Shown here piece after piece: positions 12,211 to 29,916 of a stretch of 29,916 nucleotides of DNA. Numbering within the stretch: position 1 is the first letter of the stretch; each line of letters opens with the position of its first letter. The stretch comes from Pseudomonadota bacterium. GTDB lineage: Bacteria > SAR324 > XYD2-FULL-50-16 > JAHJRI01. Location: assembly GCA_022360105.1 (NCBI GenBank), contig JAKSDL010000899.1:1-29916 (forward strand). The letters are read 5' to 3'. The position numbers were made by a program, and so were the translations under genes. The notes beneath the pieces are model-generated. The model saw nothing but the letters and a program-made list of their open reading frames with translations, searched no databases and had not been told where the DNA came from.

Positions 12211-12240
12211 ACCTGATTCTCCAATAGAATGAATGTCCGC

Positions 12241-14913
12241 TTAAGATGCTGAAGGTTGCTTTGCTGCATCAGTACTTAATTTGTTCATAACCGATCGAAT
12301 AGCTCCCGAGATCGTAATTTTGTCATATGGTTTGACGATTAAGGTTTTAATGTTTTCATATTCATACTCATTAAACTCAAACTGCCTTCCGGAAACCATA
12401 ATAATCGGAGTCGTGGGAGAAATCTTACGTAACGTTTCAGCAAACTGAAATCCGTTGATCATGGGCATATCGTAATCAGTAATGATCAGGTCAATATTTG
12501 CTTTTTTCATTTTGAATTTATCCAACCCATCTTCAGCATTTTCAGCAGTAACGACCTTGTATCCCAGCGTTTCAAGGGCTCGCGGTACACTGGCTCGTTG
12601 ATCCGCATCGTCTTCTACAAATAGAATGGTTTCTTTACCATAGTGCAAAGAAGCGTCCACACTGCCTCTATCTGTCAGTTCCTCTTCCATTTGCGGAATA
12701 TAGATATTGAACTCTGTTCGATCATCTTTGCTGCTGAAAACACTGATTCCACCCTTATGTCCTTTCACAATTCCATGAACCACTGAAAGACCTAGTCCTG
12801 TACCGATATCTTTGTTCTTTGTTGAAAAGAACGGATCGAAAATCTTATCAATATTTTGTTGATTAATTCCCGGGCCATTGTCCGCAATAGAAAGGCAAAT
12901 ATAGGAGCCGGGATTGACATTCAATTGTTGTGATAGCTTCTGGTCGACATAGCTTTCTTTTAAACTAACCTCAATTTTTCCACCTTTGCCCTTTAAGGCC
13001 TGGAAAGAGTTGGTACACAAATTCATAACAATTTGATGAATCTGTGTTGGATTTCCCAGGCAAAACAGAGCGACAGGATTGATGTCTTCCTCAAAACTGA
13101 TGTTTTTGGGTAAGGAGCTTTTGATCAGTTCCAGTGATTCACTTACTGTCTTAATCATGTTAATTGGCCTAAACTCCTGATGGCTGGGCCTGCTGAAAGT
13201 AAGGATTTGCTTCACAAGATTACTGCCACGGGAGCTGGCGTTAAGAATACGCTTTAAATCTTTTCTGGTCATGGAGCCGATCGGGACGTCCTCAATAGCC
13301 AGCTCTGCAGAATTAATTATCGAGGTCAATATATTGTTAAAATCATGCGCAATCCCCCCCGAAAGAATGCCAAGGGCTTCCATTTTTTGCGATTGCCGTA
13401 ATTGTTTTTCCAGATTAAGTTTGCTGGTGATATCTTCAGCGGTGGTTAGAACACCTACGACTTTTTCATTTTCATCATGGAAAGGAATTTTGTTAACTTC
13501 CAGCCAGATCTGGTCCTGGTTATTTCTGCGTATGGCCCAGCGGATCCTGTATTGCGGCTTTTCTGTTATCATTACTTCGCGATTGGTTTGAATCACGGTA
13601 TCCACGTTAATGCCGCCACCCATAAAACTATAGTCACTGCTACCCACAATATCGTCGTAGTTTTCAATATTGAAGAAATCCTGGAACGACCTATTGACGT
13701 CCATAAACCTGAGATCGCGATCTTGCCAGAAAACAATTTGGGGAATGTTATCCAGTATCATCCTCAGTTTCATCCTGGAATCCTTCATGGCAATATTGGC
13801 ATGTTTTCGTTGTGTCGTATTAAAAAACAGCAGAATCACCACAACGACCAATAAAACTACACTGACGACGATAAACCAGAAAATGGTGCGATTCAGCCTA
13901 TAAAAATTAAAAGGTTCGTTGACGATAATGCTGTCCTTGGGAAGCATTTTTCTCGGGATGTCAAAAAACTCCAACACATTGTGATCAAAAATATATTTAT
14001 ATCCCCCGTTAAATATAGGGATAGATGCGGCGTCTTCTCCGTTCATGATTCTTAAAGCCAACTGGGCTGCCGTTTTACCGTGAATTTGAGCACTGGATAC
14101 TTTGCCACCGACCATACCATAACCGACGATAAACTCCCATGAACCGTACACCGGGAGTTTTGTTGCTTTAAATACTTTCTGGGTGAGTTCCCAAGATGAG
14201 TAAAACTCACCGTGTATCTCTTCATAAGCAGGGATTATGTAAAGCATGATCTTTTTGGATTCATGCTTGAGACTTTCGATCAGATCTTCACTTCTTAAAT
14301 CGTTGCGAAATTGAATGTCAAAATCGATGTTGTTGACTCGGATGCTTTCCTTAATCTGGCCTGAGATTGAAATGGAAGTGACAGAGTTGTTTCCTATGAC
14401 AATCATTTTTTCCACTTCCGGATGGAGAGAACGGGCAAAATCAAGGTTTTCTTTGAAGTAAATGTTTTCGAGCACCCCGGTTATCTTTCTTCCCGGTTTT
14501 ATTTCATATTGCTTCAAATCGTTTATTCCGCAAAAAACTATAGGAACACCCGGAAAAAGATTTTCTCCGTACTCAAGAATAAATTCCAAGGCGTTGTTGT
14601 CGGAGACAATGATGATATCAAATTTTTTGTTGCGAAATTTATAGGCAAAATGCCGAAACAGGTTATCTTTGATGACCTCATCGTAATATTTTTTTGAATT
14701 CAGGTATTCGATTTGTACCTGGATAATCTGTTCACTCCCTTCAAACTCCTCCCGGATGCCCGCTGCCATGTTGTCGGACCAAGGATAGCCGTTGTGATAG
14801 GAGTTCAGATAAAATACATTGAGCTTTTTAGGGGCGGCAGTGCTTCCCGACACCGATTGTCCAGATCCGATTACAAATATCAGTAATAAAACGAATCGAA
14901 ATATCATTTTCAT
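12241..14913 (-). CDS. Hybrid sensor histidine kinase with periplasmic ABC-substrate-binding-type sensor domain
   Basis: 890 residues. Order: signal peptide (1-24, ending near SVSGS); periplasmic domain of the ABC_sub_bind/TrpX-like family (about 30-325; NVFYLNSYHNGYPWSDN, VSDNNALEFI, VPIVFCGIND, TGVLENIYFKENLDFA); one transmembrane helix (about 337-360); PAS domain (about 375-500, IVFWQDRDLRFMDVN); HisKA with H523 in GGIAHDFNNILT; HATPase (DNGPGI, FDPFFSTK, GTGLGLSVVHGIVKGH); and a C-terminal receiver (about 765-880) with D813 in LIITDYDMPM. It should bind a small ligand in the periplasm and pass phosphate to the adjacent regulator, the receiver adding a relay or brake. The ligand is unknown; lactate or a related carboxylate is inference from the divergent genes. 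A sigma-54-type promoter lies about 60 bases upstream. Confidence 0.93.
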   Translation of the reverse strand: MKMIFRFVLLLIFVIGSGQSVSGSTAAPKKLNVFYLNSYHNGYPWSDNMAAGIREEFEGSEQIIQVQIEYLNSKKYYDEVIKDNLFRHFAYKFRNKKFDIIIVSDNNALEFILEYGENLFPGVPIVFCGINDLKQYEIKPGRKITGVLENIYFKENLDFARSLHPEVEKMIVIGNNSVTSISISGQIKESIRVNNIDFDIQFRNDLRSEDLIESLKHESKKIMLYIIPAYEEIHGEFYSSWELTQKVFKATKLPVYGSWEFIVGYGMVGGKVSSAQIHGKTAAQLALRIMNGEDAASIPIFNGGYKYIFDHNVLEFFDIPRKMLPKDSIIVNEPFNFYRLNRTIFWFIVVSVVLLVVVVILLFFNTTQRKHANIAMKDSRMKLRMILDNIPQIVFWQDRDLRFMDVNRSFQDFFNIENYDDIVGSSDYSFMGGGINVDTVIQTNREVMITEKPQYRIRWAIRRNNQDQIWLEVNKIPFHDENEKVVGVLTTAEDITSKLNLEKQLRQSQKMEALGILSGGIAHDFNNILTSIINSAELAIEDVPIGSMTRKDLKRILNASSRGSNLVKQILTFSRPSHQEFRPINMIKTVSESLELIKSSLPKNISFEEDINPVALFCLGNPTQIHQIVMNLCTNSFQALKGKGGKIEVSLKESYVDQKLSQQLNVNPGSYICLSIADNGPGINQQNIDKIFDPFFSTKNKDIGTGLGLSVVHGIVKGHKGGISVFSSKDDRTEFNIYIPQMEEELTDRGSVDASLHYGKETILFVEDDADQRASVPRALETLGYKVVTAENAEDGLDKFKMKKANIDLIITDYDMPMINGFQFAETLRKISPTTPIIMVSGRQFEFNEYEYENIKTLIVKPYDKITISGAIRSVMNKLSTDAAKQPSAS

Positions 14914-15650: not shown

Positions 15651-16802
15651 ATGAAAAAGATGTTGGTAAAATTCTTAGGAATGCTGTTGGTAGTAAGTTT
15701 GGCAGCTGCACCGGTTTATGGTGCAAAACGTGAAAAATTCGGCTTTGATCCGCGGCATAAGGAAGCCAAACGTGTAAAATTCAAGACTTCAAACAAAAAG
15801 ATTCGCTGGAAAATGGTTATGCCATGGACAAAGGGGCTTCTTTTCTACGATGTGGCTGTGCATTTCGCTGACAGTGTTCGATTAGCTTCCGCTGGTCGCT
15901 TGGATATCAAACCTTTTTCTGCTGGTGAATTGGTTCCTGCACTGCAATCGTTTGACGCAGTGAGCAAGGGTTCTGCTCAGGTAGGTCATGACTGGCCCGG
16001 ATACTGGAAAGGTAAGAATGAGGCTTTTGTTGCCTTTGCTTCCGTTCCTTTTGGTTTGGATGCTGAAGGGTACAACATCTGGTTGTATGAAAAAGGCGGG
16101 ATGAAAATGATGCAGGATCTGTATGGCAAGTTTAACTTGTTTGCGCTTCCAGGTGGCCAGATGGGTCAGGAAATGGGATTGTTTTCAAATAAGCGAGCTA
16201 CCAAAATGCAGGATTTCAAAGGGATGCGACTGAGAACTCCTGGTTGGTACATGGATATTATGAACAACCTGGGTGCTTCAGTGACTCCACTACCAGGTGG
16301 TGAGGTCTATCTTGCATTGGAAAGGGGTGTGATCGATGCAGCAGAATTCTCATCTCCCGCAATTAACTATCCAATGGGATTCGATGAAATCACAAAGTAT
16401 GCGATTCAACCTGGTGTTCACCAGCCTGGAATCCAGTGTGCTCTTTTCTTCAACAAGGATGCGTATAATAAGCTTCCGGAAGATCTGAAGTGGATTGTAG
16501 ATATTGCTGCTAAGGAAACCCAACTTTGGAGTTACAATTGGATTAACGCCTTGAATGCAGAAGCCATCAAGAGATTCAGCAAGAAAGTTGAGATCGTGAA
16601 GATGGACAAAGAAACAATGATTAGTTTTAGAAAGACCACTAAGACGTATTTGGAGTCGGTAAAGGCCAAGTATCCGGAAGTGAAGAAGGTTCTGGATTCA
16701 CAAGAAGCTTTTATCGAAGAATTTGCCACCTGGAGAGAAGCAAGAAGCGGTGCTACTCCATGGCCATATGAAACATACATCAGTGGTAAGGTAACAGAAT
16801 AG
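15651..16802 (+). CDS. dctP: TRAP transporter periplasmic solute-binding protein (DctP/TakP-like)
   Basis: 383 residues. Signal peptide MKKMLVKFLGMLLVVSLAAA with likely cleavage after VYG. The mature protein has family signatures: GRLDIKPFSAGELVP (82-96), LFALPGGQMGQEMG (163-176), GMRLRTPGWY (191-200, R195 expected to bind the substrate carboxylate), LPGGEVYLALERGVIDAAEF (214-233, E232 in the conserved D-A-x-E position). These place it with the TakP/lactate-type 2-oxo- and 2-hydroxy-acid binders rather than the C4-dicarboxylate DctP group. Start ATG 15651 has AAGGAG 9 bases upstream. With lutABC and glcDF downstream, lactate is the most likely ligand, but this is inferred from context. Confidence 0.92.
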   Translation: MKKMLVKFLGMLLVVSLAAAPVYGAKREKFGFDPRHKEAKRVKFKTSNKKIRWKMVMPWTKGLLFYDVAVHFADSVRLASAGRLDIKPFSAGELVPALQSFDAVSKGSAQVGHDWPGYWKGKNEAFVAFASVPFGLDAEGYNIWLYEKGGMKMMQDLYGKFNLFALPGGQMGQEMGLFSNKRATKMQDFKGMRLRTPGWYMDIMNNLGASVTPLPGGEVYLALERGVIDAAEFSSPAINYPMGFDEITKYAIQPGVHQPGIQCALFFNKDAYNKLPEDLKWIVDIAAKETQLWSYNWINALNAEAIKRFSKKVEIVKMDKETMISFRKTTKTYLESVKAKYPEVKKVLDSQEAFIEEFATWREARSGATPWPYETYISGKVTE

Positions 16803-16812
16803 CTTAATTTTC

Positions 16813-16845
16813 CCGGCACCAGACTGATGCGATTTTTGGTGCCGG
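16813..16845 (+). repeat. Intercistronic hairpin between dctP and dctQ
   Basis: Perfect 9-base arms CCGGCACCA (16813-16821) and TGGTGCCGG (16837-16845) with a 15-base loop, 11 bases after the dctP stop. Such hairpins after binding-protein genes often protect the upstream mRNA or attenuate transcription, so that more binding protein than permease is made. Confidence 0.6.
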
Positions 16846-16861
16846 CATCCAAGGGAATGAA

Positions 16862-17371
16862 ATGTTCGAATTAATTGCCAACGGAATCGACAAGTTTAAT
16901 ACAAAAATGGGGGAGACTACCTCTTTACTTGCAATCCCTCTCCTACTTGTCGTTATCTACGAAGTATTTATGCGGTATGTTTTCAACACTCCAACCGTTT
17001 GGGGTTTTGAAATGACGGCCTTCTTATACGGAATCCACTATATGTTCGGTATAGCGTATACGGATGTAACCAAAGGGCATGTGAGGGTGGATATTTTTGT
17101 TTCCCGCTTGTCTCCAAAAAACCAAGCGATTGTCAATTTTATCACCACCTTCTTTTTCTTTTTGCCAGTATTTATTTGTCTGGTTATTTGGACCTCCAGC
17201 TTTGCTTATACTTCGTTTATCGAAGCGGAAAGGAATTCCACCAGTTGGGCGCCACTTATCTGGCCTTACAAGATTATCATGGCGTTAACGGTCGTGTTCG
17301 CACTTTTACAAGGATTATCCAATCTGATCAGGGAGATCCAGGTCTTAAGGAAAGAATTGAAATCCAAATAA
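16862..17371 (+). CDS. dctQ: TRAP transporter small permease (DctQ type)
   Basis: 169 residues with four predicted membrane helices, the standard DctQ topology. Family traits include LLVVIYEVFMRYVFNTPTVW (about 27-46), where 'E..RY.F..P..W' is the classic DctQ motif, then a TDVTKGHVRVDIF segment (about 63-75) and a final helix preceded by SWAPLIWPYKI. Start ATG 16862 follows AAGGGA by about 6 bases. It forms the inner-membrane complex with the large permease; 10 bases separate the two genes. Confidence 0.92.
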   Translation: MFELIANGIDKFNTKMGETTSLLAIPLLLVVIYEVFMRYVFNTPTVWGFEMTAFLYGIHYMFGIAYTDVTKGHVRVDIFVSRLSPKNQAIVNFITTFFFFLPVFICLVIWTSSFAYTSFIEAERNSTSWAPLIWPYKIIMALTVVFALLQGLSNLIREIQVLRKELKSK

Positions 17372-17381
17372 GAAGGTAAAT

Positions 17382-18728
17382 ATGAGTCCAGAATTATTAA
17401 CAGTGGCCATGTTTGCCACGCTTATTTTAGCAATTACACTGGGGCATCCATTAGCCTATACACTTGCGGCGATTGCAACCTTGTTTGGTTTAATCGACAA
17501 CGGTTTTAATTTGGCAGCCCTATTTGATATGTTTGCCAACAACATGTGGGGATTGATGAACAACTATGTGTTGGTGGCGATACCATTGTTTATCCTGATG
17601 GCCCAGCTGCTGGATCGATCCAAGGTCTCCGATTCCCTGTTCGAAGCTTTATATGTTGTACTGGGATCGATCAGGGGAGGATTAGGTCTTGCAGTGGTCG
17701 TTGTTTGTACCGTGTTTGCAGCAACAACAGGAATTATCGGAGCTTCGGTTGTTGCAATGGGCCTGCTGGCGACACCGGCATTGCTCAGAAAAGGATATCA
17801 GAAAGAATTGACCAGTGGAATTATCTGTGCGGCCGGAACACTTGGTATTTTAATTCCGCCTAGTATTATGATGGTTGTTTTTGGCGGATTGACAGGAATG
17901 AAAGAGACGTCGGTAGGAAATTTATTTGCAGGGGCCATTTTCCCGGGGTTAGTTTTAGCATCGCTCTACTTCGCTTATATATTGATTAGATGCAGAATCA
18001 ACCCTGAACTCGGTCCACCGATCTCAAAAGAGGAAGCCTCCACATACTCAGCCAGTCAGAAACTTGCGATGACAGCAAAATCACTGGTTCCTCCTTTAGC
18101 CCTGATTCTGGCGGTTATGGGAACCATTTTAGCTGGTGTGGCAACACCAACCGAAGCAGCAGGTCTGGGTGCAACAGGGGCTTTGATACTTGCCTTTTTT
18201 AATAAAAAGCTGAATTGGACCGTTTTAAAAGAATCCTGCTGGGCAACATTAAAGACCACTTCAATGGTGATGATGCTATTCATCGGAGGTAAATTTTTCA
18301 GCACCGTCTTTTTGAGCGCTGGTGGCGGCGATGTGGTAGCTGACTTGTTAATCGGTAGTGGTATGAATCGCTGGTTGGTATTGCTTATTATGATGTTCAT
18401 TGTGTTCATCATGGGTATGTTCATCGACTGGGCAGCCATCTTGCTGGTTACCGTACCAATTTTCATGCCGATCGCCATGGAGTTGGAATTTAATCCACTT
18501 TGGTTTGCCATGCTGTTGTGTGTGAATCTGCAAACATCATTCTTAACGCCTCCATTTGGTTACGCTTTGTTTTATTTCAAAGGAGTAGCACCACCGGAAT
18601 ATACGATGTCACACATTTATCGGGGTATTTTACCGTTTGTGGCATTACAGGTAATAGCAATTGCGATTATTACCATGTTTCCAAGCATAGTTACATGGCT
18701 ACCTGAACTCTTCTTCGGGGCCATATAA
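17382..18728 (+). CDS. dctM: TRAP transporter large permease (DctM type)
   Basis: 448 residues, highly hydrophobic, about 12 membrane helices, the usual DctM size. Diagnostic stretches are GILIPPSIMMVVFG, GVATPTEAAGLGATGAL, and MFIDWAAILLVTVPIFMP; the last resembles the version found with TakP-type binding proteins. It carries out Na+-coupled translocation of the substrate delivered by DctP. SD AAGAAGG precedes ATG 17382. After the stop the mRNA would fold into two hairpins (18736-18788, 18853-18884) before lutA. Confidence 0.93.
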   Translation: MSPELLTVAMFATLILAITLGHPLAYTLAAIATLFGLIDNGFNLAALFDMFANNMWGLMNNYVLVAIPLFILMAQLLDRSKVSDSLFEALYVVLGSIRGGLGLAVVVVCTVFAATTGIIGASVVAMGLLATPALLRKGYQKELTSGIICAAGTLGILIPPSIMMVVFGGLTGMKETSVGNLFAGAIFPGLVLASLYFAYILIRCRINPELGPPISKEEASTYSASQKLAMTAKSLVPPLALILAVMGTILAGVATPTEAAGLGATGALILAFFNKKLNWTVLKESCWATLKTTSMVMMLFIGGKFFSTVFLSAGGGDVVADLLIGSGMNRWLVLLIMMFIVFIMGMFIDWAAILLVTVPIFMPIAMELEFNPLWFAMLLCVNLQTSFLTPPFGYALFYFKGVAPPEYTMSHIYRGILPFVALQVIAIAIITMFPSIVTWLPELFFGAI

Positions 18729-18735
18729 TAACAAA

Positions 18736-18788
18736 CCAGGTAAAAAACGAGCTTAGCGTGATCTTGCAGTTCTAAGAAGATTACCTGG
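18736..18788 (+). repeat. Long-range hairpin after dctM
   Basis: CCAGGTAA (18736-18743) pairs perfectly with TTACCTGG (18781-18788). Inside it CTTAG (18752-18756) pairs with CTAAG (18772-18776), giving a two-tier stem-loop starting 7 bases after the dctM stop. No U-tract follows. Confidence 0.5.
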
Positions 18789-18840
18789 CTGAACGTTTCT
18801 TGGACAAGGTTGTTAAATCGATGGCGCGTTCCATTCCCTT

Positions 18841-18895
18841 GGAACCGGGGAACCGGGAGGAAAGGTTTATGAGTTTCCTCCCGGATCTCTGTTCC
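18841..18895 (+). terminator. Strong hairpin between dctM and lutA (attenuator or partial terminator)
   Basis: Inner arms CCGGGAGGAAA (18853-18863) and TTTCCTCCCGG (18874-18884) are 11 bases and perfect, with a 10-base loop. An outer pair GGAAC (18841-18845)/GTTCC (18891-18895) extends it. The left side contains the tandem 8-mer GGAACCGG twice (18841-18856). No U-run follows, so it could partly terminate, pause, or cut and stabilise the TRAP mRNA away from the lut mRNA. It lies in the 293-base gap before lutA, in which I see no gene and no clear promoter. Confidence 0.5.
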
Positions 18896-19021
18896 TTGGG
18901 AAAATCGGGTGTAAAAGAAGTTCAAAACAGGGACGCGGTTTTCTTTCTATTCCATTTCCTTATAGCAGGTATCCGGTATCACCTGTTTGTTAAGCCTTTT
19001 TTCAAACCTATTGAGTAACTC

Positions 19022-19768
19022 ATGCGACAATATCCAGCAAAACCGGAAAAGGTTTATTTATTTGGCACCTGCATCATTAACGATGTCTATCCGGAAACAG
19101 GCATTTCAACAATTCGCCTGTTACGGAAAGAAGGAGTAAAGGTTGTTTTTCCACAATCTCAATCGTGTTGTGGACAACCCGCCTATAATTCCGGTTTTCC
19201 GGACCAGGCTAAGATTGTGGCGCGCCAGCAATTACGATCATTTCCCAAGGAATATCCCATCGTTGTGCCTTCAGGTTCATGTGCGGGAATGATGAAACAT
19301 CATTATTCCGAATTGTTTGCAAACGAACCGGATCGAGGAGAAGCATTGGCTTTTTCAGCGAGAATATACGAATTGACAGAGTTTTTGGTGCACGTCCTGA
19401 AAATCGAACTTGAAGACAAAGGAGATCCTATCGATGTTACATGGCATTCATCCTGTCATGCTGCCAGGGAGATGAAAATTATTGAGGATTCCAAATATCT
19501 GCTAAAACAATTATCAAACGTCAATTTGATTGATCTTGACAATGAACATCAATGTTGCGGTTTTGGGGGAACCTTTTCGATAAAACAGCCCGAGATATCA
19601 GCTGCCATGGTGAAAGATAAAGTCGATGCTATTCGGAACAGTGGAGCACGTCGGGTCATTGCCGGGGATTGCGGCTGTCTGGTCAATATTACCGGAGCCA
19701 TGGAATATCAGAATGTTCCCATTCAAGGAACACACATTGCCGACTTCATTTGGGAGCGTATTCAATGA
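19022..19768 (+). CDS. lutA: Lactate utilisation protein A (LutA/LldE family)
   Basis: 248 residues, the LutA length. It has two cysteine-rich CCG domains: SCCGQPAYNSG (C49-C50) with GTC (C17) and GSCAG (C87); then SCHAARE (C145), QCCGFGGTFS (C178-C179) and GDCGCL (C217, C219). Each CCG domain is expected to hold a cubane-type iron-sulphur cluster, as in heterodisulfide reductase HdrB. LutA, LutB and LutC together oxidise L-lactate to pyruvate, passing electrons on to the quinone pool. Its stop TGA overlaps the ATG of lutB. ATG 19022 has only a weak SD (GAG 7 bases before), which fits modest expression or coupling to the upstream hairpin region. Confidence 0.92.
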   Translation: MRQYPAKPEKVYLFGTCIINDVYPETGISTIRLLRKEGVKVVFPQSQSCCGQPAYNSGFPDQAKIVARQQLRSFPKEYPIVVPSGSCAGMMKHHYSELFANEPDRGEALAFSARIYELTEFLVHVLKIELEDKGDPIDVTWHSSCHAAREMKIIEDSKYLLKQLSNVNLIDLDNEHQCCGFGGTFSIKQPEISAAMVKDKVDAIRNSGARRVIAGDCGCLVNITGAMEYQNVPIQGTHIADFIWERIQ

Positions 19769-21186
19769 AAGCCAAGTCGTTTAATTTCCAGAAAAATGTA
19801 GTTGACGCCCTGGAAGACGGCCAATTGCGCGGTAACCTCAAGTTTGCCATGGATACCATGACGCAAAAGCGCAAGGCTGTATTTGATGATCAGGATAGAT
19901 TACAGGGGTTGCGTGATCTCGGCACTTCAATTCGAAGCCGCTCTCTGGCAAATCTGCCTGATCTTCTTGAAAAGCTTGAACAAAAATGCCTGGCTAACGG
20001 GATTAAGGTTCATTGGGCTGAAACGGTGGCGGATGCAAACAATATCGTGTTGGATATTCTAAAACAGCACAATGCCACCAAGGTTGCCAAAGGCAAATCC
20101 ATGGTCTCGGAAGAGATGCATTTGAATAACTTCCTGAAGGAAAACGGTATCGATCCACTGGAAACAGATTTGGGGGAATTTATCATCCAACTGGCAGGAG
20201 AAACCCCTTCTCATATCATTGTTCCGGCGATTCACAAAAACAAGTCCGAAATAGCGGACTTGTTTCACAAGCACATACCCGACACCCCATATACGGAAAA
20301 TGTTGAAGAATTAAATGCTATTGCCCGAAAAACCTTAAGACAAAAATTTTACGAAGCTGAAGTAGGTATCAGCGGAGTCAATTTGGCAGTGGCGGAAACC
20401 GGGACGCTTTGTTTGGTGGAAAATGAGGGGAACGGCAGAATGTGCACAACTCTACCACCAGTGCACATCGCCTTAATGGGGGTGGAAAAAGTCGTAGAAA
20501 AGCTAAACGATGTTCCTCCTTTATTGGAATTGCTGACCGGTTCGGCTACCGGACAGAAAATGACCACCTATTTCAACTTTATCACATCCCCCCGAAAACC
20601 GGGTGAAAAGGATGGGCCAAAAGAAGTTCACTTGGTTTTACTGGACAACGGACGCACCAACATTCTGGCTGATCCGGAATTGCGACAAACCCTGAAATGT
20701 ATTCGCTGTGGAACATGCCTTAACCATTGCCCGGTTTACACAAGAATTGGCGGCCACGCCTTTGGTTTTGTTTATCCCGGTCCGATAGGAACAATTCTTA
20801 CTCCACAGATGGAAGGCCTGGATAAAACCCAGGGCATTCCTGATGCTTCCAGTTTATGTAACGCCTGCGAGGAGGTTTGTCCTGTCAAAATCCCCATACC
20901 TGCCTTGATACGGAGAATTCGAAACGAGGGCAAAGCGTCCAAAGGGGCCGTCAAGGGATATGGTAGCAAACGAAGTTTAATGGAGACCGCTGCCTGGAAA
21001 GGATGGGCTTTGGTTAATACACACCCATTGATTAACAAACTAGGAGGAAAAGCTATCCGCTTGTTTGGTTCTGAGCTTCCAAACGCAGGGCCGGTAAAAA
21101 AATGGTCCGGGGTCAGGACTGTTCCACGATTATCTAAAAAAACACTTCAGGAACTTGTAAAGAACGAAGGTGTTGAAAATGAATGA
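19765..21186 (+). CDS. lutB: Lactate utilisation iron-sulphur protein B (LutB/LldF family)
   Basis: 473 residues from ATG 19765, which overlaps the lutA stop (ATGA); the frame is open further upstream but those codons lie inside lutA and are not expected to be used. An N-terminal LUD domain includes VSEEMHLNNFL and the glycine-rich AVAETGTLCLVENEGNGRM. It is followed by two iron-sulphur motifs: C312-x2-C315-x2-C318-x3-C322P and C365-x2-C368-x3-C372P with VKIPIP. The C-terminus has the MTTYFNFITSPRK..GPKEVHLVLLDNGR segment that is standard in LutB. It is the electron-transfer core of the LutABC L-lactate dehydrogenase. It overlaps the start of lutC by eight bases. Confidence 0.94.
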   Translation: MKAKSFNFQKNVVDALEDGQLRGNLKFAMDTMTQKRKAVFDDQDRLQGLRDLGTSIRSRSLANLPDLLEKLEQKCLANGIKVHWAETVADANNIVLDILKQHNATKVAKGKSMVSEEMHLNNFLKENGIDPLETDLGEFIIQLAGETPSHIIVPAIHKNKSEIADLFHKHIPDTPYTENVEELNAIARKTLRQKFYEAEVGISGVNLAVAETGTLCLVENEGNGRMCTTLPPVHIALMGVEKVVEKLNDVPPLLELLTGSATGQKMTTYFNFITSPRKPGEKDGPKEVHLVLLDNGRTNILADPELRQTLKCIRCGTCLNHCPVYTRIGGHAFGFVYPGPIGTILTPQMEGLDKTQGIPDASSLCNACEEVCPVKIPIPALIRRIRNEGKASKGAVKGYGSKRSLMETAAWKGWALVNTHPLINKLGGKAIRLFGSELPNAGPVKKWSGVRTVPRLSKKTLQELVKNEGVENE

Positions 21187-21841
21187 ATCAGCCAAAGAGA
21201 AAATTCTGTTTACCATGCATTCCGCATTAAAACAGAAATCACCAGATCTTAACGAACCTATGATGTTTCCCCTCCGCCATTGGTCACATGAGGAGAGGAT
21301 TGAAATCCTCCGGCAAAATCTGGAGTCTGTTCGCAGTGAGGTGTATGTCAGTAGCGAAGACGGCTGGCTAGCTACTTTATCTGACATCTTGAAGACCAAA
21401 CAGATCAAAACCTTGTTGTATTCCCCTGAAGTTGACATGGGCAAGGAGATAGAATCCACTTTGAAGGACCGGGATTCGATTGAAACGCAATTGGTACAAT
21501 ATGACGGACCAATTGAAGAATTCAAACCCAGGTTGTTTGAAATTGATGCAGCAATTACCACAACAAAGGGAGCCATAGCAGAAAATGGTGCCATAGTGCT
21601 TTGGCCGGATCAAAACGAACCCAGGTTAATGTCACTGGTGCCTCCTATACACATTGCAGTAGTAAAAGCTGCCACGATCAATGCGACATTTAATGAAGCT
21701 TTGGAAAGTGGAAAGTGGACCGAGGGAATGCCGACAAATATCGTGTTGACGTCCGGACCGTCGAAGACAGCTGATATTGAACTGGTACTGGCTTTTGGTG
21801 TCCACGGCCCCAAGGAACTCGTTGTAATTATAATTGATTAA
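21179..21841 (+). CDS. lutC: Lactate utilisation protein C (LutC/LldG, LUD domain)
   Basis: 220 residues from ATG 21179, overlapping the lutB stop. A GTG at 21170 is also in frame, but GAAGG lies 8 bases before the ATG and not at a proper distance from the GTG. The C-terminal LUD portion shows ITTTKGAIAENGAIVLW, LVPPIHIAVV and VLTSGPSKTADIELVLAFGVHGP, the last being the family signature. The N-terminus is helical. It is the third part of the L-lactate oxidising complex. Gap to the next gene 24 bases, so one operon. Confidence 0.92.
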   Translation: MNESAKEKILFTMHSALKQKSPDLNEPMMFPLRHWSHEERIEILRQNLESVRSEVYVSSEDGWLATLSDILKTKQIKTLLYSPEVDMGKEIESTLKDRDSIETQLVQYDGPIEEFKPRLFEIDAAITTTKGAIAENGAIVLWPDQNEPRLMSLVPPIHIAVVKAATINATFNEALESGKWTEGMPTNIVLTSGPSKTADIELVLAFGVHGPKELVVIIID

Positions 21842-21865
21842 TATTGTTAAGCCACTGGAGTGAAG

Positions 21866-23248
21866 ATGGTAGCAAAAAGTGTAGTGAAACGTTTTAAAGA
21901 AATACTTGGCGAAGGTAATGTGCTGGAAGAGGAGGTCGATCGCTTTAATTATGCGTATGATGCTGCTGTATTGGAACCAAAAACACCTGCACTGGTGTTG
22001 AAACCATCACATCGGGATCAACTGGGTGAACTGGTAAAACTATGTAACGAAAACAATCTTCCCATTACAGTCAGAGGCGCAGGCACAAACCTTAGCGGGG
22101 GCACCATACCGGAACGAGAAGGAGTGGTGCTGCTGACTGGCGGATTGAATAAAATCCTGGAAATTAACGAAGAAGATATGTTTGCTGTCGTGGAGCCGGG
22201 AGTGGTTACCTCAAAACTGGCCGCAGAAGTAGCGAACAAAGGGCTGTTCTATCCACCGGATCCTGGCAGTCAAAGTGTTTCGACTATTGCCGGAAATGTG
22301 GCTGAAAATGCCGGGGGTCTCAGGGGATTAAAATACGGTGTGACTAAAGATTATCTGATGGGCCTTAGTTTTTATGATGTGGATGGAAATCTGATCAAAA
22401 CCGGCTCAAGAACAGTAAAATGTGTCACCGGTTACAATTTGACAGGGCTGATGGCAGCTTCGGAGGGAACCTTGGGCATATTCAAAGAGATCACTCTTAA
22501 GCTGATTCCACCTCCGCAAACCTCAAAAGCGATGATGGCAATCTACGATTCTGTGGAAGGAGCAACTGAAACGGTAGCAGCAATCATAGCCAATAAGATT
22601 TTGCCTTGCACCCTGGAGTTTTTAGATAATTTCACTATCCGGGCGGTCGAAGATTTTGCCAAAGTCGGTCTGCCCCTGGATGCCAAAGCTCTTTTGCTGA
22701 TAGAAGTGGATGGCCATGAAGGGCAGGTCACGGAAGAATTTGAAAAGGTCCAGAAAATATGTAAAGCCAATGGGGCTGCCAAGATTCAGGTTGCCAAAGA
22801 TGAGGTGGAAAAAAACAAGGTATGGGAAGCCCGCCGTTCAGCACTTTCGGCCTTGGCACGTTTGAAGCCGACTCTTGTCCTTGAAGATGCTACGGTACCC
22901 AGGAGCAAGATTCCTCGCATGGTTAAAGGCATCGAAGATCTGGCCAAAAAACATGACCTGGCAATCGGAACGTTCGGGCATGCGGGAGATGGTAACCTGC
23001 ACCCAACTATACTGTGTGACAAGCGTAACGAAAAAGAATGGCATACTGTGGAACAGATGGTGGAGGAATTGTTTGAAATCGCTTTGGATTTGGGCGGTAC
23101 CTTATCAGGTGAACACGGTATTGGCATGGCAAAATCCGGTTTTCTTGCTAATGAAGTCGGGCAGGCATCCATCGATTATTCACGAAGAATGAAGTTGGCA
23201 TTGGATCCGAACAATATCCTGAACCCGGGCAAGATGATTGGAGGTTAG
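21866..23248 (+). CDS. glcD: FAD-linked oxidase, D-lactate dehydrogenase / glycolate oxidase GlcD-like
   Basis: 460 residues from ATG 21866, chosen because GGAG is 5 bases upstream; GTG at 21860 is in frame but overlaps that SD. The PCMH-type FAD domain has VRGAGTNLSGGTIP, DPGSQSVSTIAGNVAENAGG and GVTKDYLMGL. The C-terminal substrate domain ends with TFGHAGDGNLHPTI (metal- and substrate-binding His residues) and GGTLSGEHGIGMAK. These are the hallmarks of the GlcD/Dld group, which oxidises D-lactate or glycolate. Only one base separates it from the iron-sulphur partner. Together with LutABC it would let the cell use both lactate isomers. Glycolate cannot be excluded from sequence. Confidence 0.9.
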   Translation: MVAKSVVKRFKEILGEGNVLEEEVDRFNYAYDAAVLEPKTPALVLKPSHRDQLGELVKLCNENNLPITVRGAGTNLSGGTIPEREGVVLLTGGLNKILEINEEDMFAVVEPGVVTSKLAAEVANKGLFYPPDPGSQSVSTIAGNVAENAGGLRGLKYGVTKDYLMGLSFYDVDGNLIKTGSRTVKCVTGYNLTGLMAASEGTLGIFKEITLKLIPPPQTSKAMMAIYDSVEGATETVAAIIANKILPCTLEFLDNFTIRAVEDFAKVGLPLDAKALLLIEVDGHEGQVTEEFEKVQKICKANGAAKIQVAKDEVEKNKVWEARRSALSALARLKPTLVLEDATVPRSKIPRMVKGIEDLAKKHDLAIGTFGHAGDGNLHPTILCDKRNEKEWHTVEQMVEELFEIALDLGGTLSGEHGIGMAKSGFLANEVGQASIDYSRRMKLALDPNNILNPGKMIGG

Positions 23249-23249
23249 G

Positions 23250-24542
23250 ATGAAGGATCTGGAAAAACTGTCGTCCATGTTGGCAGAGATTGACGATCTG
23301 CTAAGCAATTGCATGAAGTGTGGGATGTGCCAGGCTGTGTGTCCGGTGTTCACGGAAACACAAAAAGAAAGCGATGTCACCAGGGGTAAAATCTACATGC
23401 TGGAAGGCCTGGCCAAAAATATGATAGCTGATGCCAAAGGAGTGAAACAACGTCTGGAAAAATGCCTGCTTTGTGGAACTTGCTCTGCGAACTGTCCAAG
23501 CGGGGTGAGTGCTGTCGAAATATTTATGTTGGCGCGCTCAATCCTCACCGAGTTTATTGGCTTGTCAGCAACGAAAAAAGCTATTTTCAGGGGGATGCTC
23601 TCCCACCCTAAACTGTTTGACGCGATTCTGGGGCTATCCAAAAGATTCCAGGGGGTTTTCATTAAACCGGCAAACCCGGAAATGGGGACCTATTGTTCCG
23701 CTGCTTTGTCATCGTTCATTGGAGAGCGACATTTTGTGCCTCTGGCAAAGCAATCGTTTTATGCAAAACAAAAAAAGTCCGAATTAACTTCGGCCAATGG
23801 CGAACACAAAGTACTGTTTTTCCCGGGATGTGTGGTCGACAAGGTCTATCCAAACATTGCTGAATCAGCGGTTGCTGTTCTGGAAAGTAACAATGCTTCA
23901 GTGTCAATACCGGAAATTCAGGCCTGCTGCGGTATTCCGGCGTTGGCTTCCGGTGATACCCGAACATTTGAAGCTTTGTTAAATCAGAATCTTAAAATGT
24001 TCCGGAACTCTGAAGCTGACTATTTATTGACTCCCTGCGCTACCTGTACTTCGACCATCAAAAAGGTCTGGCCAATGATGGCCAAGGATTTAAACCTGAA
24101 ATGCAGGGAAGAGGTAGATCAAATCGCTGAAAAAACCAAAGACATAAGTGAATTCATGGTGGACGTATTGAGAGCAACTCCTCCTGCTCTCTCCAATGGC
24201 AAGGGCTCACGGGTAACTTACCATGACCCTTGCCACCTTGGTAAATCTTTAAATGTTTATCAGCAACCCAGAGAATTATTGAAATCAATGGCTAATATGG
24301 AACTGGTTGAAATGCAGGAGGCAGATGTGTGTTGTGGCAACGGGGGTAGCTTTAATCTGCAGCATTATGAAACCTCCACGGCCATTGGTAATCGAAAATG
24401 CCAGAATATCAAAGCCACGGGGGCAGATGTTGTGGCCACATCATGCCCGGCCTGTATAATGCAACTTACGGATGTACTTTCACAAGACAAACAGGCTATT
24501 CCCGTGAAACATGTTATCGAGCTTTGGAACCAAGCATCTTAG
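23250..24542 (+). CDS. glcF: Iron-sulphur oxidoreductase subunit, GlcF-like
   Basis: 430 residues from ATG 23250, with GGAGG 5 bases upstream inside the end of glcD; an in-frame TTG at 23238 is less likely. Two 4Fe-4S motifs: C21-x2-C24-x2-C27-x3-C31P and C72-x2-C75-x2-C78-x3-C82P. Two CCG domains follow (ACCGIPAL, CATCTST; then DPCHLGKSL, VCCGNGGSFN, CPACIMQL). That layout is GlcF/HdrD-like and accepts electrons from the FAD subunit. It is followed by a large hairpin (24563-24632), so it probably ends the operon. Confidence 0.92.
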   Translation: MKDLEKLSSMLAEIDDLLSNCMKCGMCQAVCPVFTETQKESDVTRGKIYMLEGLAKNMIADAKGVKQRLEKCLLCGTCSANCPSGVSAVEIFMLARSILTEFIGLSATKKAIFRGMLSHPKLFDAILGLSKRFQGVFIKPANPEMGTYCSAALSSFIGERHFVPLAKQSFYAKQKKSELTSANGEHKVLFFPGCVVDKVYPNIAESAVAVLESNNASVSIPEIQACCGIPALASGDTRTFEALLNQNLKMFRNSEADYLLTPCATCTSTIKKVWPMMAKDLNLKCREEVDQIAEKTKDISEFMVDVLRATPPALSNGKGSRVTYHDPCHLGKSLNVYQQPRELLKSMANMELVEMQEADVCCGNGGSFNLQHYETSTAIGNRKCQNIKATGADVVATSCPACIMQLTDVLSQDKQAIPVKHVIELWNQAS

Positions 24543-26208: not shown

Positions 26209-26325
26209 CATAAATATTATTATCCTCTTAACAGCTGCTGACTGAATGATTACCGCTGTTAAAATAGTCAATAGGTCAAATTTGGAAACAAGCGTGTTTT
26301 GTATTTAACTTTGGAAGGGGGTTTT

Positions 26326-26829
26326 ATGATTCAAGCAGAATTGGTAAAATCTTTGGAAGCCTTTAGACACATGAATGATCAGCAAATTGTATCCATTCAG
26401 AAGCATTGCGAATTACGGGAGTATCAAAAGGAGGAAAAACTATTTTCTGAAGGAGATGATGCCACACATCTGTGGATCGTAACCCAAGGGGTTGTTGATC
26501 TGCGGTTTGAGATGCCCGATGGTCGGCCCACTTCGAATAAACACACTATTTCAAATGTTGATGTGGAACATCGGAATCCTGAAGCCAAAGTACTGGGATG
26601 GTCATGTTTTGTCCCTCCTTATCAGATGCGGTTATCCGCCTATTGTGTCACAGAAACTGCTACGATCATTCGGATCGAAAAATCAAGGCTAATCGGGATT
26701 TTTGAACAAGATCCGGATATTGGGTACAAGTTTTTATCCTATTTGATTACCGTGGTAGGGTATCGCTTTCACCAGTTTCAGGATCAGGTGGCCAAAAACA
26801 TGGGCGAAGACCTGATGAGCGGATGGTAA
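26326..26829 (+). CDS. Single-domain cyclic-nucleotide-binding (CAP_ED-like) protein
   Basis: 167 residues from ATG 26326, with GGAAGGGGG 4 bases upstream; a TTG at 26299 in frame is rejected because the SD would be inside the gene. About residues 5-125 form the CAP_ED beta-barrel: LVKSLEAFRHMNDQQIVSI, EYQKEEKLFSEGDDATHLWIV (shown in parts: KEEKLFSEGD, HLWIVTQGVVDL), LGWSCFVPPY and TATIIRIEKSRL. There is no DNA-binding helix-turn-helix or channel domain. Position of the phosphate-binding loop is degenerate (no clear GE.AL....R), so it may not bind cAMP. It ends 9 bases from the convergent RseC-like gene. Possible redox or second-messenger role; unproven. Confidence 0.8.
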   Translation: MIQAELVKSLEAFRHMNDQQIVSIQKHCELREYQKEEKLFSEGDDATHLWIVTQGVVDLRFEMPDGRPTSNKHTISNVDVEHRNPEAKVLGWSCFVPPYQMRLSAYCVTETATIIRIEKSRLIGIFEQDPDIGYKFLSYLITVVGYRFHQFQDQVAKNMGEDLMSGW

Positions 26830-26838
26830 GAATTTGCA

Positions 26839-27303
26839 CTAGACTTTGTTCACGTTGCAGCTTTGGGGACGAAGCACTTTCAACAACACAGGGAGGGTGG
26901 CCTCCTTGTTGACAAACAAGCGCTCGTAAGCAACAACGCCAGCAAAACCGAATGCCAATCCCAAGATTAGGCCTAGTAAGGTTCCACTGTTTTTAGTAAA
27001 CCCAATTAACCCATGATAAAATGAACCGGTTGTTGCTCCCAGCACCAAACCTAACAAAGGCACTGTCCAAACGATCAGGGAAACTTTTAGTTCAGTGTGA
27101 CCTGTGAGATCAAACTCTACTTGATCGCCCGGCTTTGCCTGGATCGAATTTACTGCAGTAACCAGTTCAGGAACGGATTTTCCCAACGCATTATCAAACG
27201 AACAGGTGGATTTTTCTGAACAACCTTCACAAATCCCTCTGCGGCTACTTGAAATAACAGCATATTTTCCACTTACTTCCTGTATAATCCCAACTCTTGC
27301 CAT
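26839..27303 (-). CDS. RseC/MucC-like membrane protein (SoxR-reducing system family)
   Basis: 154 residues. The N-terminus has GIIQEVSGKYAVISSSRRG followed by C25-x2-C28-x5-C34, then a small beta domain with PGDQVEFDL, and two membrane helices (about 74-96 and 103-126). That is the RseC/MucC layout. In E. coli RseC works with RsxABCDGE (Rnf homologue) to keep SoxR reduced, and rseC-type genes often lie beside rnf genes; here the rnf frame starts 670 bases away on the other strand. Three rather than four Cys are seen in the motif. Start ATG 27303. Confidence 0.82.
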   Translation of the reverse strand: MARVGIIQEVSGKYAVISSSRRGICEGCSEKSTCSFDNALGKSVPELVTAVNSIQAKPGDQVEFDLTGHTELKVSLIVWTVPLLGLVLGATTGSFYHGLIGFTKNSGTLLGLILGLAFGFAGVVAYERLFVNKEATLPVLLKVLRPQSCNVNKV

Positions 27304-27972
27304 ATAATTCCTGCATCTTTGATTGCTAATCGATTACCTTAATTTTTCATTTTCAATAGGGTTAACGTAAACTCGGTTTTGTTTTTATTAGGTTATTTTG
27401 CTGAATTCGAATGGTTTACAAATAAATAGTTCGGAGAAATTGTTCCTATAATTTAGTAGAATAATGAAGTGGAATTAATTTGTTAATTCCTATTTTTTAA
27501 TCGTTTTTTAGAAAAGAAACCTGGTTGATTAAGATCAATTTCTTCTTGACCAGCGTATTTTAACGATTCCTGCTCTTCAATTGGGTTCATTGATTCTAGA
27601 TATTGTTCAATTAAATTGATCAAAACATTAAAAATATACACCTTACTTTTATTGTTTTTTTGTTGACGAAGATGAATCAAGCACGATAGGAAAAACCGAA
27701 ATCTCCTAACTACAATCATGAATCTTCATGTCTTAGGTTATGATGGATGGCTGTGATTCACAAGTCTCATTGACATAAAAGATGTTATTAACTTGGCACA
27801 ATGAGGATTTGTTGCATGAAAAAGATGCCTGGCATTAAGTTTTTTATGTTCCTACATACTGGTTGATTTAAAAACCTTTGACTCCAATATTTAAAAACAG
27901 ACCGCATTATTGGGGTTTTTGCTAGAATCTCGCTTTCCTGAGAAAGCAGGCAAGCGGACTTTATGGTTATCT
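27304..27972. other. A+T-rich gap between rseC-like and rnf genes
   Basis: 669 bases, divergent. I see no convincing gene; short frames here are Lys/Asn rich as expected from base composition. It includes an extended -10-like TGCTAGAAT (27920-27928) with no clear -35 and a small hairpin GCTTTC-CTGA-GAAAGC (27932-27947) shortly before the rnf start. Confidence 0.4.
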
Positions 27973-29916
27973 ATGAAAGTAATTGACTCTCTCTTGAACT
28001 TCCGGGAAAAAGGTTATGTCCTTAGTACAAACACCTATCCCATTATTGATCTGAAAGCACCTGAAACACTTAGTTTCCCGCTTAACGGCGGAGATGGCGG
28101 TATTTGTTCCTCCCTGGTTGATAAAGGCGATAAGTTGGAATATGGGCAGGCCATTTGGAAGGTTGATGACAAAGAGGTTTTTCCCTCTCCTGTTGAAGGT
28201 GAAGTTGTTGATTTAGTTAATGTTCCTGAAACTCACGGTGATAGCATGGTACCATCTATCACTGTTAAACCCGGTGAAACAGACCCTTCAAAACGATTTC
28301 CGGCGCTAGATCCAGATAAGGCCACATTGGATGAACTAAAAAAGCGATTAGAGGAAACTGCTATCCAGACGGATCGGATTACTGCTCAGCCTCTTGTGGA
28401 AATGCTCTGCCCCAGCGAAGGAAGTCCCATTAAGGCTGTCGTAATTCTGGCGATGGATCGTGAACCGGTAACAGTCAGTTATCTGGAGCAATATCGTGAA
28501 AGAGCGGACGAAGTCAGCAAAGCCGCTTACCTGCTACAAAAAGTGTCAGGTGCCGATAAAACCTTTGTGGCCCTCCCGAAATCTGAACAAGAGAATCTTC
28601 AAACATCATTCTCCGGTAAGGTAACCCCTCTCTGGCTTCCTAATTCCTACCCTGCCGCCTTGGATCCATTTGTGATTAAAGAAACAGAAATGGAGGGCGA
28701 CGTCGCTATTATCAGTGTTGAAACCGCATTGGCGGCTCTCGATGCAGTTTGTAACGGGCAGATTCAGATTAAAAAGACTATTACCGTTGTAGGACCTGAC
28801 AGTAAGGTTAAAGGGGTATACAGAGTATGGATCGGCACTGCGTTTAACCAGATTTTCCAAGAAGCAGGCCTGGAGCCATCCGAAAAAGATAGAATTGTGG
28901 CTGGTGGCCCTATGCTTGGATTTGCACAATATTCTCTGGATGGTACGGTCGATGCCGGTATCAATACCTTAATGCTGATTCCAGGCTCGGAAAGTATTCC
29001 CTGGTCTACAGAGCCTTGCATCAATTGTGGAAAATGCATCGATGCCTGTCCCGTGAATTTGCAGGTTCAACTGATCGGAAGATACAGCGAATTCAGTCTC
29101 TTTGAACGTACCAAGGATTATGAAATTGACGGTTGCATTAACTGTGGCCTTTGTGCTTCAGCCTGCACAGCTCGGCGGCCCTTGTTACAGATGATTGATT
29201 TGGCCAAGCGACAGTTGATAAAGCTGGAAACCGGTGAAAAAGAAGCCGTTGAAGCTGATGCACCGGCGACGGTAAAAGGCCGACGATATTTGACAGCAGC
29301 CACCGGTGATCCGGCGATGTCGTTGTTTTCGGGAAATCCCAGATTTACCGTTGGTTATGCCCCGCACTGGAGATCAAAATCCAGTATCACAAAAATGAAT
29401 ATTGCATTCATCCTTTTTCTGATTCCCACCATCATCGTCAGCGCGTTTGGCCAGTTTTACGGATCACAAGCTGTTGAACTGGATGCGTCAATCACTTCAG
29501 TTAGTAGTGTATTGAGAACACTGACTCTTGAAATGGGATTGGACACCGGATTTTTGTGGTTTTCCGGAGTATTTGGAACGGTGCTCTTTGGAATGGGTTT
29601 GGGTCTTCTGATCGAATATGCCTGTCAAGTCTTGATGCGTCAGCCTTATTATGCAACGAACGGTCATGGTGCCTTGATGGGGTTGATCATTGCCTTGTTA
29701 ATGCCTCCTTCTGTACCTGCCTGGATTATGTTGATTGCAGTTGCTGTTGCTATTTTTATGGCAAAACAGGTGTTTGGTGGTATTGGTGGTTACCCAATGC
29801 ACCCTGCCCTGGTTGGATGGCTGGTTGTTTATCTTTCCTGGCCCCAATATGTATATCCCATAGGCACAGCCAGTATCGCAGGGTTCAATACTGCTGTAAT
29901 CGTAATGACCATCCTG
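27973..29916 (+). CDS. RnfC-RnfD fusion protein (3' end cut by window edge)
   Basis: 648 codons are open from ATG 27973 to the window edge. Residues 1-420 are RnfC-like: N-terminal barrel (FPLNGGDGG, SPVEGEVVDL), SLBB-like region (IVAGGPMLGF), then two 4Fe-4S motifs C349-x2-C352-x2-C355-x3-C359P and C388-x2-C391-x2-C394-x3-C398. After a linker (about 421-455) the frame runs directly into RnfD: FTVGYAPHWRSKSSITKM, several membrane helices, GHGALMGLIIALLMPPSVP and KQVFGGIGGYPMHPALVG. No stop separates them; an in-frame ATG at 29317 could give some separate RnfD. The usual RnfC GGAGFPT (NADH/FMN) motif and the YP.G.E/AK-L stretch are absent. RnfD carries covalent FMN further on, outside the window. 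Rnf couples ferredoxin and NAD to Na+ or H+ transport; this variant may use another partner. Confidence 0.88.
   Translation, partial: MKVIDSLLNFREKGYVLSTNTYPIIDLKAPETLSFPLNGGDGGICSSLVDKGDKLEYGQAIWKVDDKEVFPSPVEGEVVDLVNVPETHGDSMVPSITVKPGETDPSKRFPALDPDKATLDELKKRLEETAIQTDRITAQPLVEMLCPSEGSPIKAVVILAMDREPVTVSYLEQYRERADEVSKAAYLLQKVSGADKTFVALPKSEQENLQTSFSGKVTPLWLPNSYPAALDPFVIKETEMEGDVAIISVETALAALDAVCNGQIQIKKTITVVGPDSKVKGVYRVWIGTAFNQIFQEAGLEPSEKDRIVAGGPMLGFAQYSLDGTVDAGINTLMLIPGSESIPWSTEPCINCGKCIDACPVNLQVQLIGRYSEFSLFERTKDYEIDGCINCGLCASACTARRPLLQMIDLAKRQLIKLETGEKEAVEADAPATVKGRRYLTAATGDPAMSLFSGNPRFTVGYAPHWRSKSSITKMNIAFILFLIPTIIVSAFGQFYGSQAVELDASITSVSSVLRTLTLEMGLDTGFLWFSGVFGTVLFGMGLGLLIEYACQVLMRQPYYATNGHGALMGLIIALLMPPSVPAWIMLIAVAVAIFMAKQVFGGIGGYPMHPALVGWLVVYLSWPQYVYPIGTASIAGFNTAVIVMTIL

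Follow-up and report, generated by a model that had tools for sequence, protein, structure and literature searches.

The stretch of DNA analysed here (the window; contig JAKSDL010000899.1, 29,916 nucleotides, from a bacterium of the SAR324 lineage) ends in a gene that encodes the subunits RnfC and RnfD of an Rnf-type complex as one polypeptide. In the current view, Rnf and the Na+-translocating NADH:quinone oxidoreductase (Na+-NQR) drive ion pumping by electron transfer along a U-shaped chain of cofactors. In the fused family, the NADH site and the bound-flavin sites appear to have been lost, and electrons would therefore probably pass to periplasmic cytochromes instead of NAD. The reading favoured here, with a probability of roughly 0.55, is that the protein belongs to a derived Rnf2-type complex acting as an ion-coupled NAD(P)H:periplasmic-cytochrome/quinone oxidoreductase, in which fused RnfC–RnfD would serve as a docking and coupling unit.

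The fused RnfC–RnfD reading frame

The frame opened by ATG 27973 (27973-29916, forward strand) runs through 648 codons to the last base of the window with zero stops, the closest in-frame stop on its 5' side being located at 27892, and the probability of an open frame of this length arising by chance is about 7e-18, given the base composition of the window. The gene is truncated by the window end inside RnfD. Its full product, P0002, has 788 amino acids if read from TTG 27910 or 767 if read from ATG 27973 and runs on to a normal RnfD C-terminus; the database search gives it 100 % identity across the query, and at least three residues were seen by eye to differ from the window. The whole RnfC-linker-RnfD architecture was found in 18 database proteins of 736–788 amino acids (P0002, the window's own, counted), which match with 43–100 % identity and 94–100 % query coverage, and an uninterrupted fused copy of 764 amino acids lies inside a contig of 288,885 bases. 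The continuity of RnfC and RnfD in one polypeptide, the central claim of a preliminary description of this DNA, is thus confirmed, and the 18 proteins together with the uninterrupted copy in a long contig establish the fusion as a heritable family trait. The same evidence excludes, for practical purposes, a local indel, a frameshift or a missed stop. It is practically inconceivable that an assembly or sequencing error joined two genes: the truncation at the window end and the existence of unfused homologues would fit such an error, but the fusion recurs in 17 proteins other than P0002, one of them on the 288,885-base contig, and in the unfused loci L048 and L055 a stop separates the two genes, whose frames differ. 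A search of viral contigs returned nothing.

The RnfC and RnfD domains and their linker

The RnfC domain (Table 1) still folds like RnfC and carries the RnfC_N signature, and TIGR01945 matches residues 19–416 with 167 bits, below its cut-off of 245.95. The GGxxFP and ECEP motifs, which we take to be the flavin mononucleotide (FMN)/NADH site of conventional RnfC, were placed by alignment with E. coli RsxC and counted in a set of 94 matches, 18 fused and 76 unfused. Motifs of both types are absent from 18/18 fused proteins; they occur in 4/76 unfused matches, of which three are conventional, and, as a positive control, each is present in 27/28 conventional RnfC frames (loci L006–L033, obtained alongside the fused ones). 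Pfam searches (E 0.001) detected neither Complex I 51K (PF01512) nor SLBB (PF10531) in the window protein, and a precomputed PF01512 match is recorded for 1/18 fused proteins (P0015). Because the motifs are missing throughout the fused family and present in nearly all conventional frames, the domain is unlikely to be an NADH entry or exit subunit, the electron-entry role in which it had been cast by the preliminary description. Further RnfC subgroups (P0068–P0095, one named Spirochaetota) are unfused and mostly without the FMN/NADH motifs, which 3/28 have; NADH-less RnfC may be widespread.

PF03116 matches residues 461–627 of the window protein (E 2e-27). In A. woodii RnfD, FMN is bound to T156 and riboflavin is hydrogen-bonded by N123 and D249, and the variants N123A and D249A have lost activity (PMC11889175). 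In the alignment, A. woodii residues 143–191, the T156 segment included, have no counterpart in the fused family. Measured between two fixed points, the RnfD loop has 25 residues, with no SxAT among them, in 18/18 fused proteins, and 22–35 residues in 100/100 unfused members of the class (P0217–P0316, a few of them fragments). The same loop has 56–61 residues in 20/20 more distant matches (120 RnfD matches of 434 were listed) and 57–94 in six comparison proteins, three of which come from distant RnfB-GltD loci; in the three conventional RnfD/NqrB proteins compared, it has 57, 61 and 94. An SxAT-like string occurs within the shortened loop in 7/100 unfused class members, and these seven strings are provisionally read as chance, given that the loop deletion is in place in these proteins too. 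That the fusion caused the flavin loss was considered and rejected, as the short loop is also present in unfused L048 and L055 and in all 100 unfused proteins. In a 556-amino-acid RnfD, P0096, the conventional FMN-site loop holds a repeat of Ala, Thr, Glu and Pro that by eye extends over about 200 residues or more.

Histidines are found at the positions of A. woodii RnfD S78, N123 and G238 in 18/18 fused proteins. All three are present in 88/100 unfused class members and in 0/26 others; two of the 12 class members without the full set are cut at the first position, and the riboflavin-ligand Asn (N123) is replaced by His in 97/100. In C. tetanomorphum RnfD, Gly237 touches the FMN ring, helix III comprises residues 79–90 and Asn124 flanks riboflavin (PMC9588780), and these sites would correspond, by one-residue offsets, to A. 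woodii G238, S78 and N123. According to this alignment, the three histidines would mark the start of channel helix III, the riboflavin-ligand Asn and the FMN-ring-contacting Gly of helix VIII, and would therefore lie along the former flavin/ion path. It is conceivable, though quite doubtful, that the RnfD flavins have been exchanged for a His-bound cofactor or site, such as heme b or a quinone pocket. If so, the Rnf/Nqr family would include a third kind of ion pump, one whose membrane arm is free of flavins and whose RnfC–RnfD is a single chain, and which takes electrons from NAD(P)H at RnfB and delivers them to cytochrome/menaquinone.

The linker comprises about 45 residues in the window protein and 29–53 residues between two fixed alignment columns in the 18 fused proteins, and it is predicted to be disordered, the AlphaFold2 predicted local distance difference test score being below 50 at residues 446–489 of P0002. 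It had been proposed that a tether would set the distance between the electron-entry subunit and the membrane flavin; this idea is unsupported, because the entry and flavin sites are gone, the attachment segment of RnfD included, and the linker varies in length and is predicted to be disordered. In a solved Rnf structure, the N-terminal arm of RnfD is already buried in RnfC (PMC9588780), and the covalent join would therefore leave the geometry as it is and instead contribute to stoichiometry and stability. The broader view of the preliminary description, a conventional ferredoxin:NAD+ Rnf in which the fusion merely tethers RnfC to RnfD, is highly improbable. It shares the folds and the rnfCDGEAB gene order, but the FMN/NADH motifs and the covalent-FMN segment are missing in every fused member, the RnfC profile score is under the cut-off, and one relative with the fused gene, G003, additionally encodes a separate, full-scoring conventional RnfC (TIGR01945, 552 bits).

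An improbable alternative is that the domains are made also, or mainly, as separate proteins, with free RnfD translated from an internal start at 29317. A GGTGATC sequence, Shine-Dalgarno-like by reading, precedes ATG 29317 in the window and in the related locus L001, so that a second, shorter RnfD product is possible in this species, but the start is not present in the related locus L037, Met stands at this column in only 5/18 fused proteins, and the long frame is conserved across all of them. A conserved internal start of RnfD was rejected on the grounds of these counts.

Gene order in relatives and the proposed electron route

Since the window ends within RnfD, the genes downstream are known from relatives. 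L001, a contig of a SAR324 metagenome-assembled genome with 82 % nucleotide identity to the window over the shared 1.5 kb, carries, in order, rnfCD, rnfG, rnfE, rnfA, rnfB::gltD (712 amino acids) and the genes for a cytochrome with 16 CxxCH motifs, an Fe-S protein resembling HmcB/HybA and a protein of the NrfD family whose tail carries 5 CxxCH motifs. L037 (in G003) has this entire order plus the upstream cyclic-nucleotide-binding-domain gene and the divergent rseC of the window. The expectation that rnfG, rnfE, rnfA and rnfB would follow was thus borne out in both relatives. Genes for the 16-heme cytochrome, the HmcB-like protein and the NrfD::multiheme protein are found in L001, L037, L048 and L055 (the hemes of L055 being uncounted), and in G306, the fifth genome of the class, the contig stops after the cytochrome gene. 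The genes of L048, which is GC-rich, were called as longest open frames, so that rnfG, rnfE, rnfA and rnfB-gltD were masked; rnfB-gltD was shown by another search. The cytochrome module recalls the Hmc complex, in that genes for HmcB- and HmcC-like proteins adjoin the rnf genes in relatives along with that for the 16-heme cytochrome. The L001 proteins score 91.9, 238.2 and 224 bits against the HmcA, HmcB and HmcC equivalogs, all below the cut-offs of 400, 420 and 550.

RnfB-GltD of L001 combines PF04060, PF14691 and PF07992, and its length, 712 amino acids, is the same in L037. Against the Protein Data Bank, RnfB chains cover its residues 3–191 and NfnABC/StnABC chains residues 170–688, with 37–43 % identity to NfnABC/StnABC and NfnI in the fold search. 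By sequence it joins RnfB to an NAD(P)H oxidoreductase of the NfnB/GltD type, for which NADPH and NADH are both possible. The cysteines of the RnfA/RnfE intramembrane cluster are kept, as judged by eye, in all rows (E. coli RsxA with six relatives; RsxE with five relatives). The covalent-FMN motif of RnfG is GAT in L001, L037 and L051 and GAS in the distant L052 and L053.

In the canonical route, electrons pass from ferredoxin through RnfB, the RnfA/E cluster, the FMN of RnfG, the FMN of RnfD, riboflavin, the RnfC clusters and FMN to NAD+ (PMC11889175). Judged by its motifs, the first half of this route is intact in the relatives, with a domain of the NAD(P)H type added to it, and the RnfD FMN and RnfC FMN sites of the second half are lost. 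Under the favoured reading, electrons from NAD(P)H, and possibly also from ferredoxin, would enter at RnfB and cross the membrane via RnfA/E, coupled to ions, to RnfG. From there, they would be handed to the 16-heme cytochrome encoded next to the rnf genes and to the HmcB/NrfD-like module, which may in turn feed menaquinone, and not pass via RnfD and RnfC to NAD. RnfC–RnfD would be kept as a docking and coupling unit with two Fe-S clusters, and the fusion may be tolerable because RnfC is no longer a separate dehydrogenase and already wraps the N-terminal arm of RnfD.

Several observations weigh against this reading. Both CxxCxxCxxxC motifs are present in 18/18 fused and 68/76 unfused RnfC proteins, and their retention argues for RnfC still carrying electrons. 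The position of A. woodii D249 is occupied by Asp in 17/18 fused proteins and by Glu in 1/18. The HmcB/HybA-like protein (L001:7618-8481; L037:8954-9826) has scant room for an N-terminal signal peptide, as the gap between the cytochrome gene and its own is 18 nt in L001 and 25 nt in L037, and no signal peptide is visible by eye, while cytochrome partners should be periplasmic. Rnf2 has been described as linking the NADH, ferredoxin and NADP pools (PMC11887813). Moreover, the trait is patchy. Another gene of the window is 95 % identical to its counterpart in G001, to which the host is therefore close, 90 % in G002, 87 % in G010 and 76 % in G003; G002 and G010, though nearer the window than G003 by this gene, have an unfused match only, and the fused gene is lost or moved there, unless these genomes are incomplete at that place.

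The chief argument against an RnfC with a structural role only comes from the retained clusters, which also speak for an alternative that is possible, if rather unlikely, namely that the U-shaped path is kept. Electrons would then run from RnfG via a non-covalent RnfD cofactor (riboflavin or a replacement) and the RnfC clusters to a cytosolic one-electron partner such as ferredoxin, and the complex would be an ion-coupled NAD(P)H:ferredoxin enzyme (or the reverse), with the cytochromes as accessories. The conserved RnfD aspartate and the kept RnfC fold also favour this path, and the authors of the Rnf2 description hold that RnfC needs a donor or acceptor other than NAD (PMC5109826). On the other hand, the segment for the covalent FMN, the bridge between RnfG and riboflavin, is lost, His stands in place of the riboflavin-ligand Asn in all fused and nearly all unfused class members, and no gene for an RnfC partner is evident in the operons read, whereas each of the five genomes of the class has a multiheme cytochrome gene next to these genes.

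Apart from the features collected in Table 1, window positions 15651–24542 hold tripartite ATP-independent periplasmic (TRAP) transporter genes (DctP, DctM), followed by CCG/LutB/LUD-domain genes and flavin adenine dinucleotide-oxidase/CCG genes (Pfam). They are read as a cluster for organic-acid uptake and lactate/glycolate-type oxidation, the names LutABC and GlcDF being assigned by reading. At 10777–14913, on the reverse strand, the gene for a hybrid sensor kinase with an ATP-binding cassette (ABC)-substrate-binding-like domain adjoins that for a sigma-54 response regulator. The divergent rseC arrangement is repeated in L037, and in L055 rseC lies in-line inside the operon.

Table 1. Positions of features of the fused gene and of its upstream neighbours in the window
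Feature	Position	Strand	Remarks
Cyclic-nucleotide-binding-domain protein	26299..26829	+	syntenic in L037, 66 % identity
RseC/MucC-family gene	26839..27303	-	PF04246, E 6e-20; divergent
RnfC domain	27973..29244	+	residues 1-424; comprises a barrel-sandwich N domain, a NuoF-like fold that lacks FMN/NADH motifs, and a ferredoxin domain
First [4Fe-4S] motif, CINCGKCIDAC	29017..29049	+	C349-C359
Second [4Fe-4S] motif, CINCGLCASAC	29134..29166	+	C388-C398
Linker	29245..29376	+	residues ~425-468; variable, predicted disordered; leads into RnfD N-terminal TVGxAPHWR segment
Possible internal start, GGTGATC and ATG 29317	29305..29319	+	present in L001, absent in L037
RnfD domain	29341..29916	+	from residue 457; cut at window end, complete in P0002
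His565 (H586 of P0002)	29665..29667	+	at A. woodii RnfD S78
His610 (H631 of P0002)	29800..29802	+	at A. woodii RnfD N123
Third RnfD His (H716 of P0002)	beyond window end		

Distribution, known systems and implications

Both domains occur in one stop-free frame in 2/145 relatives of G001, namely G001 itself, in which the fused copy begins inside RnfC at the contig end, and G003. RnfB-GltD was detected at E <=1e-150 in 8/383 relatives, and in 7/386 relatives of G259, an overlapping set. In the unfused loci L048 (G259) and L055 (G386), which has the same operon, the motifs are missing from RnfC, and the short loop and the three histidines are found in RnfD (the RnfD of L048 is P0217; that of L055 was read by eye). 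In the distant RnfB-GltD loci L050–L053, RnfC is separate and motif-less in 4/4, RnfD has a long loop without SxAT in the three that were read (L050, L051 and L053), and a multiheme cytochrome is located near 3/4. This distribution suggests that the NADH site and covalent FMN were lost with the gain of RnfB-GltD, that the loop deletion and the histidines followed, and that fusion came last. G003 also has a conventional Rnf (L038), and genes of G001 are read as Na+-NQR (L039), so that further pumps of this family are present alongside the variant.

On the RnfC tree, the fused proteins cluster, with 2–3 changes compared with about 16 in shuffles: two changes on a quick tree (77/94 RnfC proteins plus seven others) and three on a careful tree (70/94 plus G259). 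A single-change origin was recovered in 0/200 bootstrap trees, the bootstrap not having settled, and the approximately unbiased (AU) test does not reject a tree in which the 18 fused proteins are held together (p-AU 0.391). Alignments A2 and A3 comprised 51/94 and 50/120 proteins. Of the 7990 RnfB-GltD matches, 120 were listed, and longest-contig sizes were compared for 119 of them. An exact longest-contig size is common to an RnfC match and a listed RnfB-GltD match in 15/52 cases (contigs >=6 kb; seven fused and eight unfused) and to an unfused RnfD and a listed RnfB-GltD match in 20/100, the non-matches being uninformative because so few of the RnfB-GltD matches were listed. One size shared by RnfD and RnfB-GltD matches, 32452, is that of the G386 contig, where the genes lie in one operon.

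The closest known system is the Rnf2, or Desulfobacula toluolica Tol2-type, complex of Desulfobacteraceae, which has an RnfB of about 700 amino acids with NAD-binding sites, as in the relatives here, and an RnfC without NADH and soluble-ligand-binding domains, as in the window protein, the likeness resting on the description of the Tol2 proteins; its mode of action is given there as unverified, and it has been detected by proteomics in D. multivorans (PMC5109826). Rnf2 has been assigned to the core genome of the Desulfobacteraceae and is reported to be produced in abundance by six strains (PMC11887813). The present family differs from it in the joining of RnfC and RnfD, the deleted flavin loop of RnfD with three histidines nearby and the 16-heme/HmcB/NrfD module. 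Loci L050–L053, with their separate RnfC and, in the three read, long RnfD loop, are taken as putatively Rnf2-like. With the conventional Rnf of A. woodii, C. tetanomorphum and A. vinelandii and with E. coli Rsx, the family has in common the RnfA/E cysteines, the RnfG FMN motif, the Fe-S chain of RnfB and the RnfC and RnfD folds. Unlike these, it has an RnfC without FMN/NADH motifs, an RnfD without the covalent-FMN segment and two gene fusions.

Parallels to single features exist elsewhere. In Na+-NQR, the decay of RnfC to NqrA has been described; as in the family studied here, the output subunit lacks an NADH/FMN site and a dehydrogenase module is located on the input side, with quinone as the likely final acceptor (PMC4014512). 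In contrast to the present RnfC, NqrA has also lost the Fe-S cysteines, and the domains of NqrF differ from those of RnfB-GltD, which stands in its place in the relatives; NqrB of G001 retains SGAT. The Rnf of Methanosarcina acetivorans offers a precedent for the absence of NAD(P) use, electrons being modelled to pass from RnfG to a multiheme cytochrome c, and by its description has neither an NAD(P)H module on RnfB nor an RnfC–RnfD fusion (PMC4023990). Two-subunit Nqr/Rnf-like complexes, whose RnfD/NqrB-like subunit has no flavinylation site, have been proposed to pass electrons on from NAD(P)H to acceptors outside; just two subunits are apparent, an RnfG-like one and an RnfD-like one that bears the NAD domain (PMC11334425), whereas here rnfGEAB follow in the relatives. 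PF00175, the C-terminal domain expected of such an RnfD-like subunit, was found neither in the window protein, where the RnfD C-terminus is missing, nor among the precomputed domains of P0002.

No report of an RnfC–RnfD fusion or a rebuilt RnfD was found among the matches listed for the open-licence literature, few papers of which were covered in full, and the excerpts of the related Rnf, Rnf2 and Nqr papers make no mention of the fusion, the RnfD deletion or the histidines. The combination of a large RnfB with an NADH-less RnfC is already known from Rnf2 of sulfate reducers; the RnfC–RnfD fusion, the rebuilt RnfD and the cytochrome/NrfD module are apparently new.

With the intramembrane cluster cysteines and RnfG kept and the return arm seemingly dismantled in steps, in the order suggested above, the family may be regarded as a deletion experiment performed by nature, one that asks which half of the circuit is needed for pumping. 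It would also provide a second example of an Rnf turning into a respiratory NAD(P)H dehydrogenase, and it serves as a warning that genomes annotated with a ferredoxin:NAD+ Rnf may be without that activity.

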